Below, piece by piece: positions 24,078 to 63,650 of a DNA stretch of 64,000 nt. The stretch comes from Acidobacteriota bacterium. Its GTDB lineage: Bacteria; Acidobacteriota; Terriglobia; Terriglobales; Acidobacteriaceae. The first letter of the stretch is position 1. The number at the start of each line of letters is the position of its first letter. The notes beneath the pieces are model-generated. The model searched no databases, was not told the DNA's origin, and saw only the letters and a list, made by a program, of their open reading frames with translations. Where the stretch lies: NCBI GenBank assembly GCA_016196065.1, contig JACPYL010000008.1, forward strand, positions 434,001 through 498,000. The letters run 5' to 3'. The position numbers and the translations under genes were made by a program.

Positions 24078-24164
24078 GTGGTTTGTGGCTAGTGCTTAGT
24101 GATTAGTAAACGACTGTTTCCTTCCATCCGTTTCGCTAACCACTAATCACCAACCACTATCCAC
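24078..24164. repeat. Heptad array pair D (GTGGTTA type), inverted
   Basis: Left arm GTGGTTT, GTGGCTA, GTGCTTA, GTGATTA (24078-24105). Right arm TAACCAC, TAATCAC, CAACCAC, TATCCAC (24137-24164), the reverse complement of the same unit. The two arms are 31 nt apart and fill the gap between the aldehyde dehydrogenase gene and the downstream GABA-type aminotransferase gene. Confidence 0.72.
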
Positions 24165-27130: not shown

Positions 27131-27235
27131 TGGAGTCATGAATCATCGAGGCATTGAATCACTGAAAACGACAGGACTGGGGCAATGATTCAGTGAATCA
27201 ATACCTCAATGACTCAATTGCCCCGATGACTCAAT
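27131..27235. repeat. Imperfect inverted array E (TGAATCA type)
   Basis: Short words of 7-8 nt (GAGTCAT, TGAATCA, TTGAATCA on one side; TGATTCA, TGAGTCA on the other, read in reverse) make a nested fold. ATTGAATCACTGAA (27153-27166) pairs perfectly with TTCAGTGAATCAAT (27189-27202); GGGGCAAT (27179-27186) pairs with ATTGCCCC (27217-27224); GAGTCAT (27133-27139) pairs with ATGACTC (27226-27232). Two of these pairs interlock, so alternative folds are possible. It occupies the whole gap between two genes of the cluster. Confidence 0.65.
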
Positions 27236-35208: not shown

Positions 35209-35309
35209 ACCACGAAGGCCACCAAGGCTCACACGAAGTATCACGAAGGATGTCGGTTTAAGACTTTACTTCGTGCACCTTCGTGGTGTGCCTCCGTGGC
35301 CTTCGTGGT
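35209..35309. repeat. 101-bp inverted element of CACGAAGG words (MITE-like)
   Basis: ACCACGAAGGCCACCAAGG (35209-35227) faces the reverse complement ACCACGAAGGCCACGGAGG at 35291-35309 (17 of 19 matches). CACGAAG words also recur inside both arms. It has no coding capacity. It resembles the arms of the CACAGAG cassette at 22.3 kb in design but not in sequence. The remaining bases of the 35133-35374 gap show nothing else. Confidence 0.65.
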
Positions 35310-58722: not shown

Positions 58723-61353
58723 GTGAAGTACACGCGCCTCTATGGCGTGAAGCATAAGCGGACCGAAGGCCAGTTCCAAACCACCTGGAAAGAACTGCAG
58801 GAAGGCCTGCCCAAGACCGGAGAAACCGGATTTCTGCTGGGTGTAGCGGACAATCGATTGTTGCTGGACGGCACGCCTCTCGAAACCGGACAGGCAGAAC
58901 GAAGCTTCGCGCAACTGCTCACTGCGGCCGGCCTGGCGAGTATCCATTTTTCCAGCAAAGTTACGCTCGATGACTTTACCCGCCTGGTCACAGCCTTTGC
59001 GATGGGCGGATCGAAGGCGCAGGACTTCGCCAAGCAACTCAAAGACACGCTCGGCGACAACAAGAATTCTTCCATCAAAATCAATGAAGTGAAATTTATC
59101 GCAGCTGATCCGACGACCGGAGAAATTTCCGTCGCAGCCCAGCTCGCTGCACAATCGCTCGGACCAGAATTCAAACAGTGGCTGAACGATCCGCAAAAAA
59201 TGCTGCAGTTGATCGCCGCGGCCCAGGGAGCGAGTTCCGGCGGCTCGGGCGAGCCCGGCGGAGCGCCACTGGGTACGGTCCCCAATGTTCCGGTCGCGCA
59301 TGGCGGCGGAGCGGGCACCGGCGGCGGCGGTGGTGCGTGGACCGGCGGAACGGTTCCTCTTCAAGAAGAGGAAGTGATTCAAGCCATCCGCATGCTCACT
59401 CACTTCGGACAAGTAGCGCAGGATCCGAACGCGGGCCCCGAACAGTTCACCGCGGAGCTGAACAAAGTTCCCGAAAGCACCAAGCTGAATCTGGCTGGGT
59501 TACTTGAAAGTTTGTCGAAGCAGGTCACAACGGTTGCCGAAGAAACCGACACGCCACTGTTGATGAAGGCGGCCGAGCACATGGCCATCCGCTTCGCACT
59601 CGATCGCTATTCGAAGGGTGAAGTAAAGGTCAACGCCGTTCACCAGATGATGGAGCACATGAGCCGTCAGATGGACACGTTGCGGCAGATCTTGCGCGTG
59701 CAGGAAGACAAGATGTCGAAGGCGGGCATCCTGGTCGACTCGCATGCCGACATTCTCGACCGTATGTTCTGGGCGGAAGTCCCGGAAGCTGGCAAGAAGA
59801 GCGTACTGCTCTCGGGCGAAGCGGCATGTGTGCCTCCGCGCAACATCCGGCAGTTTGTGGAAATGCTGCTGGAGCGCGACGACAAAGAGATTGCAGCCAA
59901 GATCCTGACTAACTACTGCAGTTGCCTGGACGCCAAGGACCTCGAGCCGCGGCGCAAGACCGCCATTGGTCTCGCGCAGATTGCCGACCTCTACGCAAGC
60001 GCTCCGGAAGAAGTGATGCCGAACGCAATTTCCATGATCGGCGAAAAGCTGGCCAAGGAAACCGACAGTGAAGTGCAAAGCCTTTTGAGCGCGGCATTCA
60101 CCCGTTTCGGACAGGAAGCCTGCACTCGCAAGAAATACAAAGCGGTCGCGGAAGTTTGCCTGTCGCTGGTCGATATCGGCAAGGAACGTCCGCTGCTGGT
60201 GCAGGATCTGCGTTCCCGTGTTGGCATTGAAAACCGCCTCCCGGAAATGCTCGAAGAAGCCATCATGGCGCCTTCGGTTTCGGAAGAGCTGATCAACGTT
60301 CTGCAGCAGATTCCGAAGAGTTCCGTGGAACATCTCTCTGACCGATTCTTCCGCTCGCAGAAACGAGTAGAGTGCGACCGGATCGTGGAACTGGTCGGAG
60401 AACTGGGCCAGCCGGCGGTCGACGATCTGCGCGAGGTGCTGCGCACCGGACAACCGCGACAAGCTGCATCCTGTGTAGGCCTGCTGAGCCGTCTGAATGT
60501 CTCAACGTTGCTCGAACTGCTGCCGACACGCATGTCGGAATTCAACCGTTTCTATCAGGACGTAATCGTGCGCCAGATCGCGTACGGCGCCGCTTCCGAT
60601 CGCGGCCGCACGCTCCTGGAGCTTTTGGAATTGCTCGATCCGCTCATTCTGCCCGAGGCCATCGACGAAATCGGGATGAGCCTGGATCGCACCGCGAGTT
60701 CGAGTCTGATTGCGATGGCGAGCGCGGGCGAAGCTGCTTCCCGGCCACCGTTTGTGCAGCTCAAAGCGATCGAGTCCCTGGGACGATTGCGAGATGCAGA
60801 AGCGGTTCCGGTTCTGCGCAGCATCGTGGAAGAGAAGAAGATCTGGGGCCGCACGCAGCATCGCGAGCTACGCGTCGCTGCGGCGCAGGCACTGTCGAAG
60901 ATCGACCCGCGCTATGGCGCCCAGGTACTGGCAGACAGTGGCCTGGATGCCGCAGAACTGGCCATCAATCCGTTGGATCCGGCTCCTGCTTGCCCATGGG
61001 TGCGGCAGCGGCGCTATGAACGCGTCATTCTGCCACGCACATTCTCGGCGACGCTGAGCAGTTCCTGGGGAAAGTCCAATATCGTCATGCGCGAAATGAG
61101 CATGGGCGGCGGTATGGGAACGCGTAGCGACAATCTCCGCGTCGGTTCCGAAGCGAACGTCGAGATCTCCACGGGCGTAAAAAAGATTCGCGGCCAGGTC
61201 CTCCTGCGTCGCGCGCGTGTCAACGAAATCGGCTTCGAGTTCGTCAGCATGGATCTGGACAGCCGTTACCGGCTACGCCGCATCCTGGTCGAAGCGTCCG
61301 AGAAAGCGCCCGAGAATCGTTCGTCCACGTGGGACGGCGAACGCAAGACCTAG
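58723..61353 (+). CDS. HEAT-repeat/PilZ protein (start may be AUC 58648)
   Basis: 876 aa if started at GTG 58723, but this lacks an SD. In the same frame, ATC at 58648 has GGAGG exactly five bases before it and begins with Ser-Thr-Ala-Ala (a usual second residue), adding 25 residues. Residues 1-150 are helical; a Gly-rich linker follows (GGGAGTGGGGGAWTGG); residues about 225-770 form helical HEAT-like repeats (RKTAIGLAQIADLYASAPEEV, FVQLKAIESLGRLRDAEAVPVL). The last about 100 residues are PilZ-like (RYERVILPRTFSATL, EMSMGGG, NEIGFEFVSMDLDSRYRLRRIL). Acts presumably in c-di-GMP-dependent control. Single-gene unit with a strong terminator. Confidence 0.82.
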   Translation: MKYTRLYGVKHKRTEGQFQTTWKELQEGLPKTGETGFLLGVADNRLLLDGTPLETGQAERSFAQLLTAAGLASIHFSSKVTLDDFTRLVTAFAMGGSKAQDFAKQLKDTLGDNKNSSIKINEVKFIAADPTTGEISVAAQLAAQSLGPEFKQWLNDPQKMLQLIAAAQGASSGGSGEPGGAPLGTVPNVPVAHGGGAGTGGGGGAWTGGTVPLQEEEVIQAIRMLTHFGQVAQDPNAGPEQFTAELNKVPESTKLNLAGLLESLSKQVTTVAEETDTPLLMKAAEHMAIRFALDRYSKGEVKVNAVHQMMEHMSRQMDTLRQILRVQEDKMSKAGILVDSHADILDRMFWAEVPEAGKKSVLLSGEAACVPPRNIRQFVEMLLERDDKEIAAKILTNYCSCLDAKDLEPRRKTAIGLAQIADLYASAPEEVMPNAISMIGEKLAKETDSEVQSLLSAAFTRFGQEACTRKKYKAVAEVCLSLVDIGKERPLLVQDLRSRVGIENRLPEMLEEAIMAPSVSEELINVLQQIPKSSVEHLSDRFFRSQKRVECDRIVELVGELGQPAVDDLREVLRTGQPRQAASCVGLLSRLNVSTLLELLPTRMSEFNRFYQDVIVRQIAYGAASDRGRTLLELLELLDPLILPEAIDEIGMSLDRTASSSLIAMASAGEAASRPPFVQLKAIESLGRLRDAEAVPVLRSIVEEKKIWGRTQHRELRVAAAQALSKIDPRYGAQVLADSGLDAAELAINPLDPAPACPWVRQRRYERVILPRTFSATLSSSWGKSNIVMREMSMGGGMGTRSDNLRVGSEANVEISTGVKKIRGQVLLRRARVNEIGFEFVSMDLDSRYRLRRILVEASEKAPENRSSTWDGERKT

Positions 61354-61391: not shown

Positions 61392-61420
61392 AAAAGCCTC
61401 CGCTTCGAGCGGAGGCTTTT
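61392..61420. terminator. Bidirectional Rho-independent terminator
   Basis: GCCTCCGCT (61396-61404) and AGCGGAGGC (61408-61416), loop TCG, flanked by a run of A (61390-61395) and TTTT (61417-61420). It serves the plus-strand HEAT/PilZ gene and the minus-strand ATP synthase operon, which face each other. Confidence 0.88.
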
Positions 61421-61762: not shown

Positions 61763-61839
61763 TGTTTTTCTCCTAGGAAATAGCCGCCAGTTGGTGGTTG
61801 ACACCGCGCCTTGGGAGGCCGGAGCCCTCACGCTGGAAG

Positions 61840-61927
61840 CAGGTGACAGGTCTCAGGTGTTAGGTGTCAGGAAAACCGAATGAAGCGACGCGCTTCCTGA
61901 GACCTAAGACCTGACACCTGACACCTG
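61840..61927. repeat. Heptad array pair G (AGGTGTC type), inverted, between atpB and atpE
   Basis: Left arm AGGTGAC, AGGTCTC, AGGTGTT, AGGTGTC; right arm the same unit reversed. The 34-nt arms (61840-61873, 61894-61927) match at 30 positions, 20 nt apart, so the transcript can form a long hairpin in the leader of atpE. Confidence 0.78.
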
Positions 61928-61931
61928 TTCT

Positions 61932-62690
61932 TTAGTGTTCGTGCGCCGTTGCTTCGCCCAGATAAACGCAGGCGAGCAGCACAAAAATGTATGTCTGAAT
62001 CAGCGACACGCCGATATGCAATCCCTCGAACAGCACCGGGATACCAATCGGCAAGAGCGAGAAAAATACCAATGTCACCATTTCGCCGGCGAACATATTA
62101 GCGAACAAACGAATCGTCAATGACATGATCCGGGCGAGGTGACTGAACACTTCGATCGGGAACATCAAGACCGGCAAGAACAGCCGGACCACGATCGGCA
62201 GGTCTTTGTCCTGCGGCCCGATAAAGTGTTTCAAATATCCAATCGCGCCGTTGGTTCGGACGCCGTACAAGTTGTAATAAACCCAAGTCATCAACGCGCA
62301 ACCGAGCGGCACCACGTTCACCGCCGTTGGCGATTCCAGTCCCGGGACGAGTCCAATCAAATTGCAGGAGAGGATGAACATTCCCAGCGTAATCAGATAT
62401 CCGACGAACGGGTCCGCATGATGGCCGATCGTCTCGTGCGCCAGGTTGTTTACAAACCCGTAAATACCTTCCATGGTGTGCTGCAGGCTGCCCGGCTTCT
62501 CCACTGACAACCGCATCCGCACCAGGACAAAAAATGCCGTCAGCAGCAGGACGACCAGGATCTCCATCGCCACCGCATTGGAAATCGGCGCCGCAGGGTT
62601 CATCACGGGAACGCCAATCGCGTGCAGCAAAGCGAACACAGGTCCGCCGAAGATCCGATTCAGGAATTCAGTAAATACCAGTTGTTCCAT
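61932..62690 (-). CDS. atpB: ATP synthase F0 subunit a
   Basis: 252 aa, about five or six membrane helices. The essential Arg facing the c-ring is in SLTIRLFANMFAGE; the preceding VFSHLARIM and the C-terminal LLACVYLGEATAHEH are family hallmarks. N-terminus shows the periplasmic PVFALLHAIGV segment. The gene lies between atpI and atpE on the minus strand, in the order a-c usual for the start of atp operons. It is separated from each neighbour by an inverted heptad array. Confidence 0.97.
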   Translation of the reverse strand: MEQLVFTEFLNRIFGGPVFALLHAIGVPVMNPAAPISNAVAMEILVVLLLTAFFVLVRMRLSVEKPGSLQHTMEGIYGFVNNLAHETIGHHADPFVGYLITLGMFILSCNLIGLVPGLESPTAVNVVPLGCALMTWVYYNLYGVRTNGAIGYLKHFIGPQDKDLPIVVRLFLPVLMFPIEVFSHLARIMSLTIRLFANMFAGEMVTLVFFSLLPIGIPVLFEGLHIGVSLIQTYIFVLLACVYLGEATAHEH

Positions 62691-62705
62691 ACGATTAGGT
62701 AATGC

Positions 62706-62797
62706 AGCTTCGAGCTACAGGCTTGAACCTGATTCTTCCAGATTTCAAGACCGTCAGCGCCCAATTTTTCGCGGCTCGCAGCTCGTAGCTCGCAGCT
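62706..62797. repeat. Heptad array pair H (AGCTTCG type), inverted, between atpI and atpB
   Basis: Left arm AGCTTCG, AGCTACA, GGCTTGA (62706-62726); right arm CGCGGCT, CGCAGCT, CGTAGCT, CGCAGCT (62770-62797), the same unit reversed. The two arms span the gap before the atpB start. Confidence 0.72.
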
Positions 62798-62800
62798 TCT

Positions 62801-63247
62801 TTACTTCTTACGAAATGCAACGACCGCTTCGACTCCTGCCTCGGCCATCATGGCCGCCACCGGCAGGCAAAGCCCCCACAGGAACCCTCGGAAGGCCAAA
62901 ACGGAACCCTTTAAGATAGCATACGCAGCCACTCCAACCAACCCGTAACGGACCAGGAAACGGCCGACAATCGCCCATCCCCGCTCCTTGCTCTGCTGGT
63001 TCACTACGCGGTCGCCAAGGGCCTCGACGCCGCTGATCAAGGTTCGGAAATTGACATAGGAAACGGCCGATCCAGCGGCCACACCGAGTGCGCCAACCCA
63101 ACCGTAATACCAGTAGACGGGTCCCAGGAGAAGCACGCCGACCACCAGGATTGTCCGCAGCATTCGGGGGATGGCGCGTTCGTGGAAAGTATCGAAAGGC
63201 GTGCTTTCGACTGGGGCGCTTGCTTCGGAGTTGGAGAGGTTACTCAT
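62801..63247 (-). CDS. atpI: ATP synthase protein I-like membrane protein
   Basis: 148 aa. Four hydrophobic helices after a polar N-terminus (MLRTILVVGVLLLGPVYWYYG, VGALGVAAGSAVSYVNFRTL, FLVRYGLVGVAAYAIL, FLWGLCLPVAAMMAEAGVEAVV). This matches the AtpI family (c-ring assembly and Mg2+ transport have been proposed). Its start overlaps the atpZ stop by 8 nt, and atpB follows, which is the usual position. Assignment rests mostly on that context and the helix pattern. Confidence 0.85.
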   Translation of the reverse strand: MSNLSNSEASAPVESTPFDTFHERAIPRMLRTILVVGVLLLGPVYWYYGWVGALGVAAGSAVSYVNFRTLISGVEALGDRVVNQQSKERGWAIVGRFLVRYGLVGVAAYAILKGSVLAFRGFLWGLCLPVAAMMAEAGVEAVVAFRKK

Positions 63248-63473
63248 CCCGGGAGGCCGACATCGCCATACGAATCATCTGATAGAAACCCAGCACTGCG
63301 CCCGCCAGGAGGCCGGCCAGATAAAGCCACTTGGTGTGAAGCCAGTAGTCGAGAAGTTTGCCAAAAAAGAACCCTACCAGGATTGCAGCCGGGATGATGA
63401 ATCCAATTTCGGAGTAGCGTGCGAGCGCCACCAGCGGATCTTTCTTCCCGGGAGGCGTGGAGGGCGCGGCCAT
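63240..63473 (-). CDS. atpZ: AtpZ-family small membrane protein
   Basis: 77 aa. Two helices (IGFIIPAAILVGFFFGKLLDYWL and WLYLAGLLAGAVLGFYQMIRM), the standard AtpZ/AtpI hairpin with the GKLLDYW motif. N-terminus (AAPSTPPGKKDPLVALARYSE) is polar. First gene of the ATP synthase operon; overlaps atpI. In other bacteria AtpZ and AtpI form a complex that assists assembly of the c-ring. Confidence 0.9.
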   Translation of the reverse strand: MAAPSTPPGKKDPLVALARYSEIGFIIPAAILVGFFFGKLLDYWLHTKWLYLAGLLAGAVLGFYQMIRMAMSASRDE

Positions 63474-63489
63474 GCGGTGATTCTAAACT

Positions 63490-63650
63490 AGCCGCGGGCT
63501 GCGGGCGCCGAGCTACGTGCAACCAAATTTGCCGAGACCCTGTTCCGCCGGAGAAGCGGGCAAAATCATCAACCCAACCATCACTGAGTCGGAGGTGCTG
63601 AGGGGTGGGGGTGCGCGAAGCGCGAAGGTTCTAGCTCGTGGCTCGAAGCT
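63490..63650. repeat. Heptad array pair I (AGCTACG type), inverted, between nuoN and atpZ
   Basis: Left arm AGCCGCG, GGCTGCG, GGCGCCG, AGCTACG (63490-63517); right arm TCTAGCT, CGTGGCT, CGAAGCT (63630-63650). About 110 nt of unrelated sequence lies between the arms. The right arm ends three bases before the nuoN stop codon. Confidence 0.65.

Follow-up and report, generated by a model that had tools for sequence, protein, structure and literature searches.

A predicted leader RNA upstream of atpE and a neighbouring heptad-repeat hairpin in Acidobacteriota

The gap between atpB and atpE in this member of the Acidobacteriota contains a block of 56–60 nt, situated between a heptad-repeat hairpin and the atpE Shine-Dalgarno (SD) sequence, that is, on the comparative evidence, a structured RNA. 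This leader is present as a single copy in genomes, is tied strictly to atpE, occurs in one bacterial class and has no Rfam family. We interpret it as a new leader RNA that acts in cis on atpE, most likely at translation initiation, and the hairpin beside it as an optional, fast-turnover neighbour. The leader was missed by an earlier note on this DNA, which had drawn attention to heptad hairpins in three gaps of the operon. Bacteria require many c subunits for each a subunit and produce both from one transcript, and to our knowledge there are few species in which it is understood how the c:a ratio is fixed.

Results

Organization of the F0 segment

The window (the whole stretch of 64,000 nucleotides that was analysed) derives from an acidobacterium of Terriglobales type with a genome of 5.53 Mb, designated G000. 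Its minus strand carries, in order of transcription, the C-terminus of nuoN followed by atpZ, atpI, atpB and atpE, and the gene names assigned in the earlier note are borne out (Pfam matches of the atp genes in Table 1). The atpZ and atpI genes overlap by 8 nt, and the terminator-like hairpin downstream of atpE is the probable end of the F0 transcript. The N-terminus of AtpE resembles a signal peptide (MKK...VPAFAQ), an extension common to the class, including genomes without the leader. Convergent with atpE on the plus strand, positions 58723–61353 encode an 876-aa protein whose matches to HEAT-repeat and PilZ are weak.

Table 1. Coordinates of the F0 genes, the predicted leader and the repeat features, numbered along the window
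Feature	Coordinates	Strand	Basis
atpE, F0 subunit c, 103 aa	61451–61762	-	Pfam ATP-synt_C, E 7e-12
Shine-Dalgarno AGGAG of atpE	61770–61774	-	read directly in sequence
atpE leader RNA (predicted)	61782–61841	-	covariance models R1/R2, E 9e-14 and 1e-12; covariation
Leader P1 5' arm	61833–61840	-	covariance models, covariation
Leader core GUGAG	61827–61831	-	covariance models, covariation
Leader P2 hairpin	61800–61826	-	covariance models, covariation
Leader core AACCACC	61793–61799	-	covariance models, covariation
Leader P1 3' arm	61783–61790	-	covariance models, covariation
Heptad hairpin, atpB–atpE	61840–61927	-	30/34 arm matches; fold z -8.7
atpB, F0 subunit a	61932–62690	-	Pfam ATP-synt_A, E 5e-50
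AGCTCGN heptad tracts, atpI–atpB gap	62706–62797	-	weak imperfect hairpin, core arms 62706–62718 / 62785–62797
atpI	62801–63247	-	Pfam ATP-synt_I
atpZ (ATPase_gene1)	63240–63473	-	Pfam PF09527
Two short AGCTCG-type tracts, nuoN–atpZ gap	63498–63649	-	no hairpin above chance
Intrinsic-terminator-like hairpin after atpE	61392–61420	-	100% complementary, 13-nt arms, 3-nt loop, A/T flanks

A predicted RNA structure upstream of atpE

The block common to relatives has the form ...AGCGUGAGGG-(hairpin)-CAACCACCCACUGGCGGC... and comprises an outer helix P1, a hairpin P2 that varies, and a GUG:CAC helix with a conserved internal loop on either side; in one of these loops Y faces CNN, and in the other AG faces AAC. 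The core of the block, AG-Y-GUGAG ... AACCACC-NN-CU, hardly varies and lies at a near-fixed distance from the gene that follows, 13–17 nt from the SD in 40/47 and mostly 26–30 nt from the start codon.

Two covariance models were built, R1 from 54 sequences and R2 from 93. The 93 sequences contain 188 double-change paired cells, compared with 65 in shuffles (0/500) and 32–81 when columns were slid. Eighteen of the 22 leader pairs covary, with two-sided changes in both P1 and P2, and the GUG:CAC helix is intact in 92/92 distinct rows. An alignment mainly of hits outside the training set, itself model-fitted and with three members not at atp genes, gave 75 double-change cells versus 33, and when sequences were anchored on the core alone rather than on structure the P1 and P2 flanks still paired above shuffles. 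RNAalifold on a MAFFT alignment recovered only the inner helix and P2 (P1 was specified by hand and afterwards tested), and single-sequence folds of the leader were unremarkable, with z from -2.4 to +0.1; the case for the leader therefore rests on comparison, that is, on covariation.

A GTG and an open frame can be read across the block in some species (a 126-aa ORF in the window), which could speak for a short leader-peptide gene, or else a DNA element such as a promoter or operator, and not for an RNA. Such a reading is highly improbable given that the length of P2 varies in all three phases, and is thus not that of a reading frame, that changes in P1 and P2 are compensatory and two-sided, and that the block abuts the SD, leaving no space for a promoter plus leader. 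Changes in P2 length break phase, and on this ground a leader peptide, or an extension of the AtpE N-terminus, was likewise rejected. Some families invite the idea that the core sequence CACCUCCU mimics the anti-Shine-Dalgarno, but family f1 mostly has CACCCACU, and such mimicry was therefore rejected as a general mechanism.

Distribution of the leader and search for known relatives

Exactly one copy of the leader was found in G000 with both R1 and R2. Within the class, R1 matches 174/299 genomes and R2 matches 239/296 good genomes with one copy each, the exception being G377, which has two F0 operons (L196, L206) and one leader copy in each atpB–atpE pair. Of the class hits, 73 with E < 0.002 from a wide range of families were fetched, and every one is in an atpB–atpE gap; three weak hits within the class (L200, L201, L207) are not at atp genes. 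The leader is clearly absent between atpB and atpE in some members of the class (G047, G062, G114), indicating that it is not indispensable. Searches covered this phylum, and hits outside the class (G484, G551, G612, G476) were not at atp genes and were rejected as chance, so that no credible match was found elsewhere in the phylum.

No relevant match to Rfam 15, which includes Na+-I (DUF1646), Acido-1 and Acido-Lenti-1, was obtained at E up to 5 in the window or in loci L039 and L115. A search of Rfam with the leader and the heptad hairpin returned only spurious weak matches, mostly to miRNA models. No described relative of the leader among known RNAs was found in Rfam 15 or by literature search, and a literature search for an acidobacterial riboswitch-like atpE leader found only an unrelated paper. 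Inspection of the leader showed no terminator and no conserved alternative pairing by which the SD would be visibly sequestered, and hence no switch is evident.

These results bear on whether the leader is a riboswitch aptamer, or the target of an autoregulatory protein, sensing a signal from ATP synthesis or c-ring assembly. Covarying stems that enclose invariant internal loops, a single target gene and a position just before the SD would suit a sensor of this kind, and ATP synthase genes of other bacteria are among those associated with Na+ riboswitches (PMC9337991). We consider this explanation not very likely, as the leader is small, has one target gene, displays neither a visible expression platform nor an alternative partner for the SD, and matches no Rfam family, Na+-I (DUF1646) included.

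The heptad hairpin of the atpB–atpE gap

The hairpin lies directly after the atpB stop and has one paired nucleotide in common with leader P1. Its arms, 61840–61873 (3' arm) and 61894–61927 (5' arm), enclose a 20-nt loop (61874–61893). The earlier note had described 34-nt arms with 30 matches, and this description is exact: the remaining 4 positions of each 34-nt arm are mismatches, and an inverted repeat as good was found in 0/1000 shuffles. The predicted RNA fold has an energy of -54.1 kcal/mol, and shuffled sequences average -27.0 (z = -8.7). Both arms consist of degenerate 7-nt units in register, with a within-arm heptad identity of 0.78, the 5' arm being made up of CAGGTGT-type heptads in the mRNA sense. 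An intrinsic terminator was considered and rejected because the 3' arm is followed by CUUCCAGCG, with no U-run.

In relatives whose atpB identity is 70% or more, nearly all atpB–atpE gaps hold a significant inverted repeat, which is rare in the atpI–atpB and nuoN–atpZ gaps. A heptad hairpin occurs in 17/20 close-relative atpB–atpE gaps compared with 6/28 other codirectional gaps at the same loci (genes called by a simple codon-usage script; Fisher p 2e-5, a value that ignores phylogeny) and 17/202 in G000 itself, and is missing from many wider relatives and several close ones. The unit types at this site differ among relatives and include CAGGTCT, CAGTACC, CAGTTTC, AGGAGTC and TAGCTGG. When placed on an atpB tree in which 33/64 rows have no heptad type, CAGTACC needs 7 changes to account for 7 rows and CAGGTST needs 10 for 11. 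This scatter of unit types indicates a stem that is maintained and arrays that are swapped, without base-by-base compensation. The stem thus persists in the clade while whole heptad arrays are replaced. Arm heptads pair at 0.834 versus 0.801 (sd 0.011) for permuted heptads, a weak register signal. The check suggested in the earlier note, whether the operon's hairpins are kept despite sequence drift, with paired changes, consequently comes out positive for the atpB–atpE site as regards position, but neither for the other two gaps nor for paired base-by-base changes.

A related genome, G008, has at locus L193 (minus strand) a heptad hairpin of approximately 110 nt inserted in the loop of leader P2, with the core and the P1 and P2 sequences kept, and a second heptad hairpin after the atpB stop. 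The predicted minimum-energy fold of this leader copy does not show the leader. Retention of the core and P1/P2 sequences around the insertion indicates that leader and heptad hairpin are separable.

Heptad repeats elsewhere in the operon and the genome

The atpI–atpB gap (62691–62800) has AGCTCGN tracts on both sides, of which the longest continuous complement is only 13 nt; the repeat was matched in 6/1000 shuffles and the fold gave z = -2.2. The nuoN–atpZ gap has one tract at each end, forming 18-nt arms 116 nt apart with an IR score of 8. This repeat was equalled in 309/1000 shuffles and folding of the gap is poorer than that of its shuffled versions (z = +1.4), so that there is no hairpin above chance. 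Inverted heptad arms, reported for all three gaps in the earlier note, are accordingly clear at atpB–atpE, weaker at atpI–atpB and no better than chance at nuoN–atpZ. Nor is it supported that three hairpins punctuate the transcript as that note proposed, one being at chance level, the two gaps other than atpB–atpE not retaining theirs in relatives and heptad hairpins being dispersed over the genome. It had also pointed to the lack of a hairpin between atpZ and atpI, which is uninformative because their 8-nt overlap leaves no space for one.

Used as a query, the atpB–atpE hairpin has 61 matches in its own genome, and the best full-length non-self match is 77% identical; no near-identical second copy was found there, and recent transposable copies (REP/BIME or MITE-like) were rejected on this ground. 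The 864 kb of the genome that were sampled, in stretches, contain 61 long inverted repeats, 19 of them clearly heptad-periodic with unit types GGTSTYA, GTTCTCA, AGCTCGN, GTGGTTA and others, and 15 of these 19 lie between codirectional genes. A heptad hairpin is present in about 8% of 80–300-nt codirectional gaps (17/202, with genes called by a simple codon-usage script). Since heptad hairpins occur genome-wide, the ATP operon has no private code of punctuation. A literature search for heptad repeats in Acidobacteria found no paper. Further repeat hairpins in the window have GTGATTA-type heptads (24085–24164), 7/8-nt TGAATCA-type units (27139–27216) and 9-nt CACGAAGGC-type units (35209–35309), and samples C10, C12, C25 and C27 of G000 (L136–L175) contain other dispersed palindromes of the families TGTCATCCCGAGCGAAGCGAGGGATCTGCA, CGTAGAGACGCGGCTTGCCGCGTCTC and AGGTCAAAGGTGAGAGGTCAGATTGCAGAGGT.

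It is quite possible, though we would put it at rather less than an even chance, that heptad hairpins are neutral products of strand slippage and template switching, or selfish repeats, which build up in untranslated gaps, the atpB–atpE gap having one because it is kept open by the leader. The many unit types genome-wide, the wholesale unit swaps, the insertion inside the leader loop of G008 and the lack of a near-identical second copy are all consistent with neutrality. Retention in close relatives well above the level of other codirectional gaps argues against it, as do the slightly better pairing of arm heptads than of permuted ones and the distribution of hairpins in relatives' loci outside the atpB–atpE gap, where they occur only in codirectional gaps (6/28 versus 0/31 other gaps, p 0.008, ignoring phylogeny).

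Discussion

The observations above are best accommodated by a picture of two elements, a cis-acting atpE leader governing translation initiation and a heptad hairpin next to it, which we regard, with moderate confidence, as probably correct. The leader would most likely fold in the mRNA and set translation initiation of subunit c, serving as an initiation module independent of atpB translation, and its invariant loops would probably be where a protein or the ribosome recognises it. The heptad hairpin most likely acts, if at all, only as a stable stem; it might insulate the leader from translation of atpB, serve the atpZ-I-B segment as a 3'-end block, or do both. A bolder extension, which we regard as rather unlikely, would have the leader as a new sensor RNA (a riboswitch, or an autoregulatory element responsive to c subunit or assembly) tuning c-ring synthesis across the class, and the adjoining hairpin as a functional insulator under stem-only selection, maintained by whole-array swaps and not by single compensatory changes. 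The likelihoods attached to these explanations overlap because leader and hairpin are separate questions.

The earlier note read the heptad hairpins as processing or stabilising the RNA, the one before atpE raising c over a through segment stability. The atpB–atpE hairpin is indeed very stable and its position is kept in close relatives despite sequence turnover, and segmental mRNA stability involving intercistronic hairpins is known for puf (PMC6238624), mal and pap (PMC5927463). In the malE type a hairpin stabilises the upstream segment, and in the papBA type cleavage upstream of the hairpin favours the downstream segment (PMC5927463). Lying directly after the atpB stop, the present hairpin would in the malE manner protect atpZ-I-B and not atpE; atpE would benefit only if cleavage of the papBA type took place on the upstream side of the hairpin. 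Two of the three hairpins claimed are not conserved or not real, and about 8% of unrelated codirectional gaps contain a hairpin of this sort. As for the hairpin setting F0 stoichiometry, its retention before atpE in 17/20 close relatives agrees with that idea, but much of the wider family, together with several close relatives, lacks the hairpin and has an equal stoichiometric need for c over a. We regard the stability explanation as unlikely; the stoichiometry idea is possible, but is not favoured by the comparative evidence.

The atpB–atpE hairpin resembles those of puf, malE and papBA in separating genes of a single operon for which unequal amounts of product are needed (PMC5927463, PMC6238624), and differs from them in being missing from much of the wider family and in standing right after the less-needed gene. 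Judged by published description, the closest parallel appears to lie among the heptanucleotide-repeat stem-loops of cyanobacteria, to which STRR repeats also belong, in the heptad stem of the Nostoc trnL intron (PMC4476775). In its P6b element Class I TDNGATT and Class II NNTGAGT heptads replace each other while the stem stays, and the two systems share degenerate 7-nt repeats in both arms, changes in length by whole heptads and recurrent switches of repeat class (PMC4476775). P6b is a fixed stem within an intron and has two types of unit in a single genus, whereas the Acidobacteriota have free-standing intergenic hairpins of at least five unit types that are swapped wholesale at one operon site. 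The TAACTGA repeats of Beggiatoaceae are also dispersed intergenic heptanucleotides, with a proposed post-transcriptional role, but unlike the present hairpin of mixed units they consist of one unit repeated directly, immediately before start codons (PMC4679880). The Na+-I (DUF1646) riboswitch is, like the atpE leader, a structured mRNA leader sometimes found at ATP synthase genes (PMC9337991); the atpE leader differs in its architecture, a single stem interrupted by two conserved internal loops, in having only one target gene and in its distribution in one class.

At the atpB–atpE site structure is kept while sequence is replaced wholesale, and such cases would be overlooked by ordinary covariation tests. 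The leader beside it provides a concrete, testable candidate for control of c-subunit synthesis.
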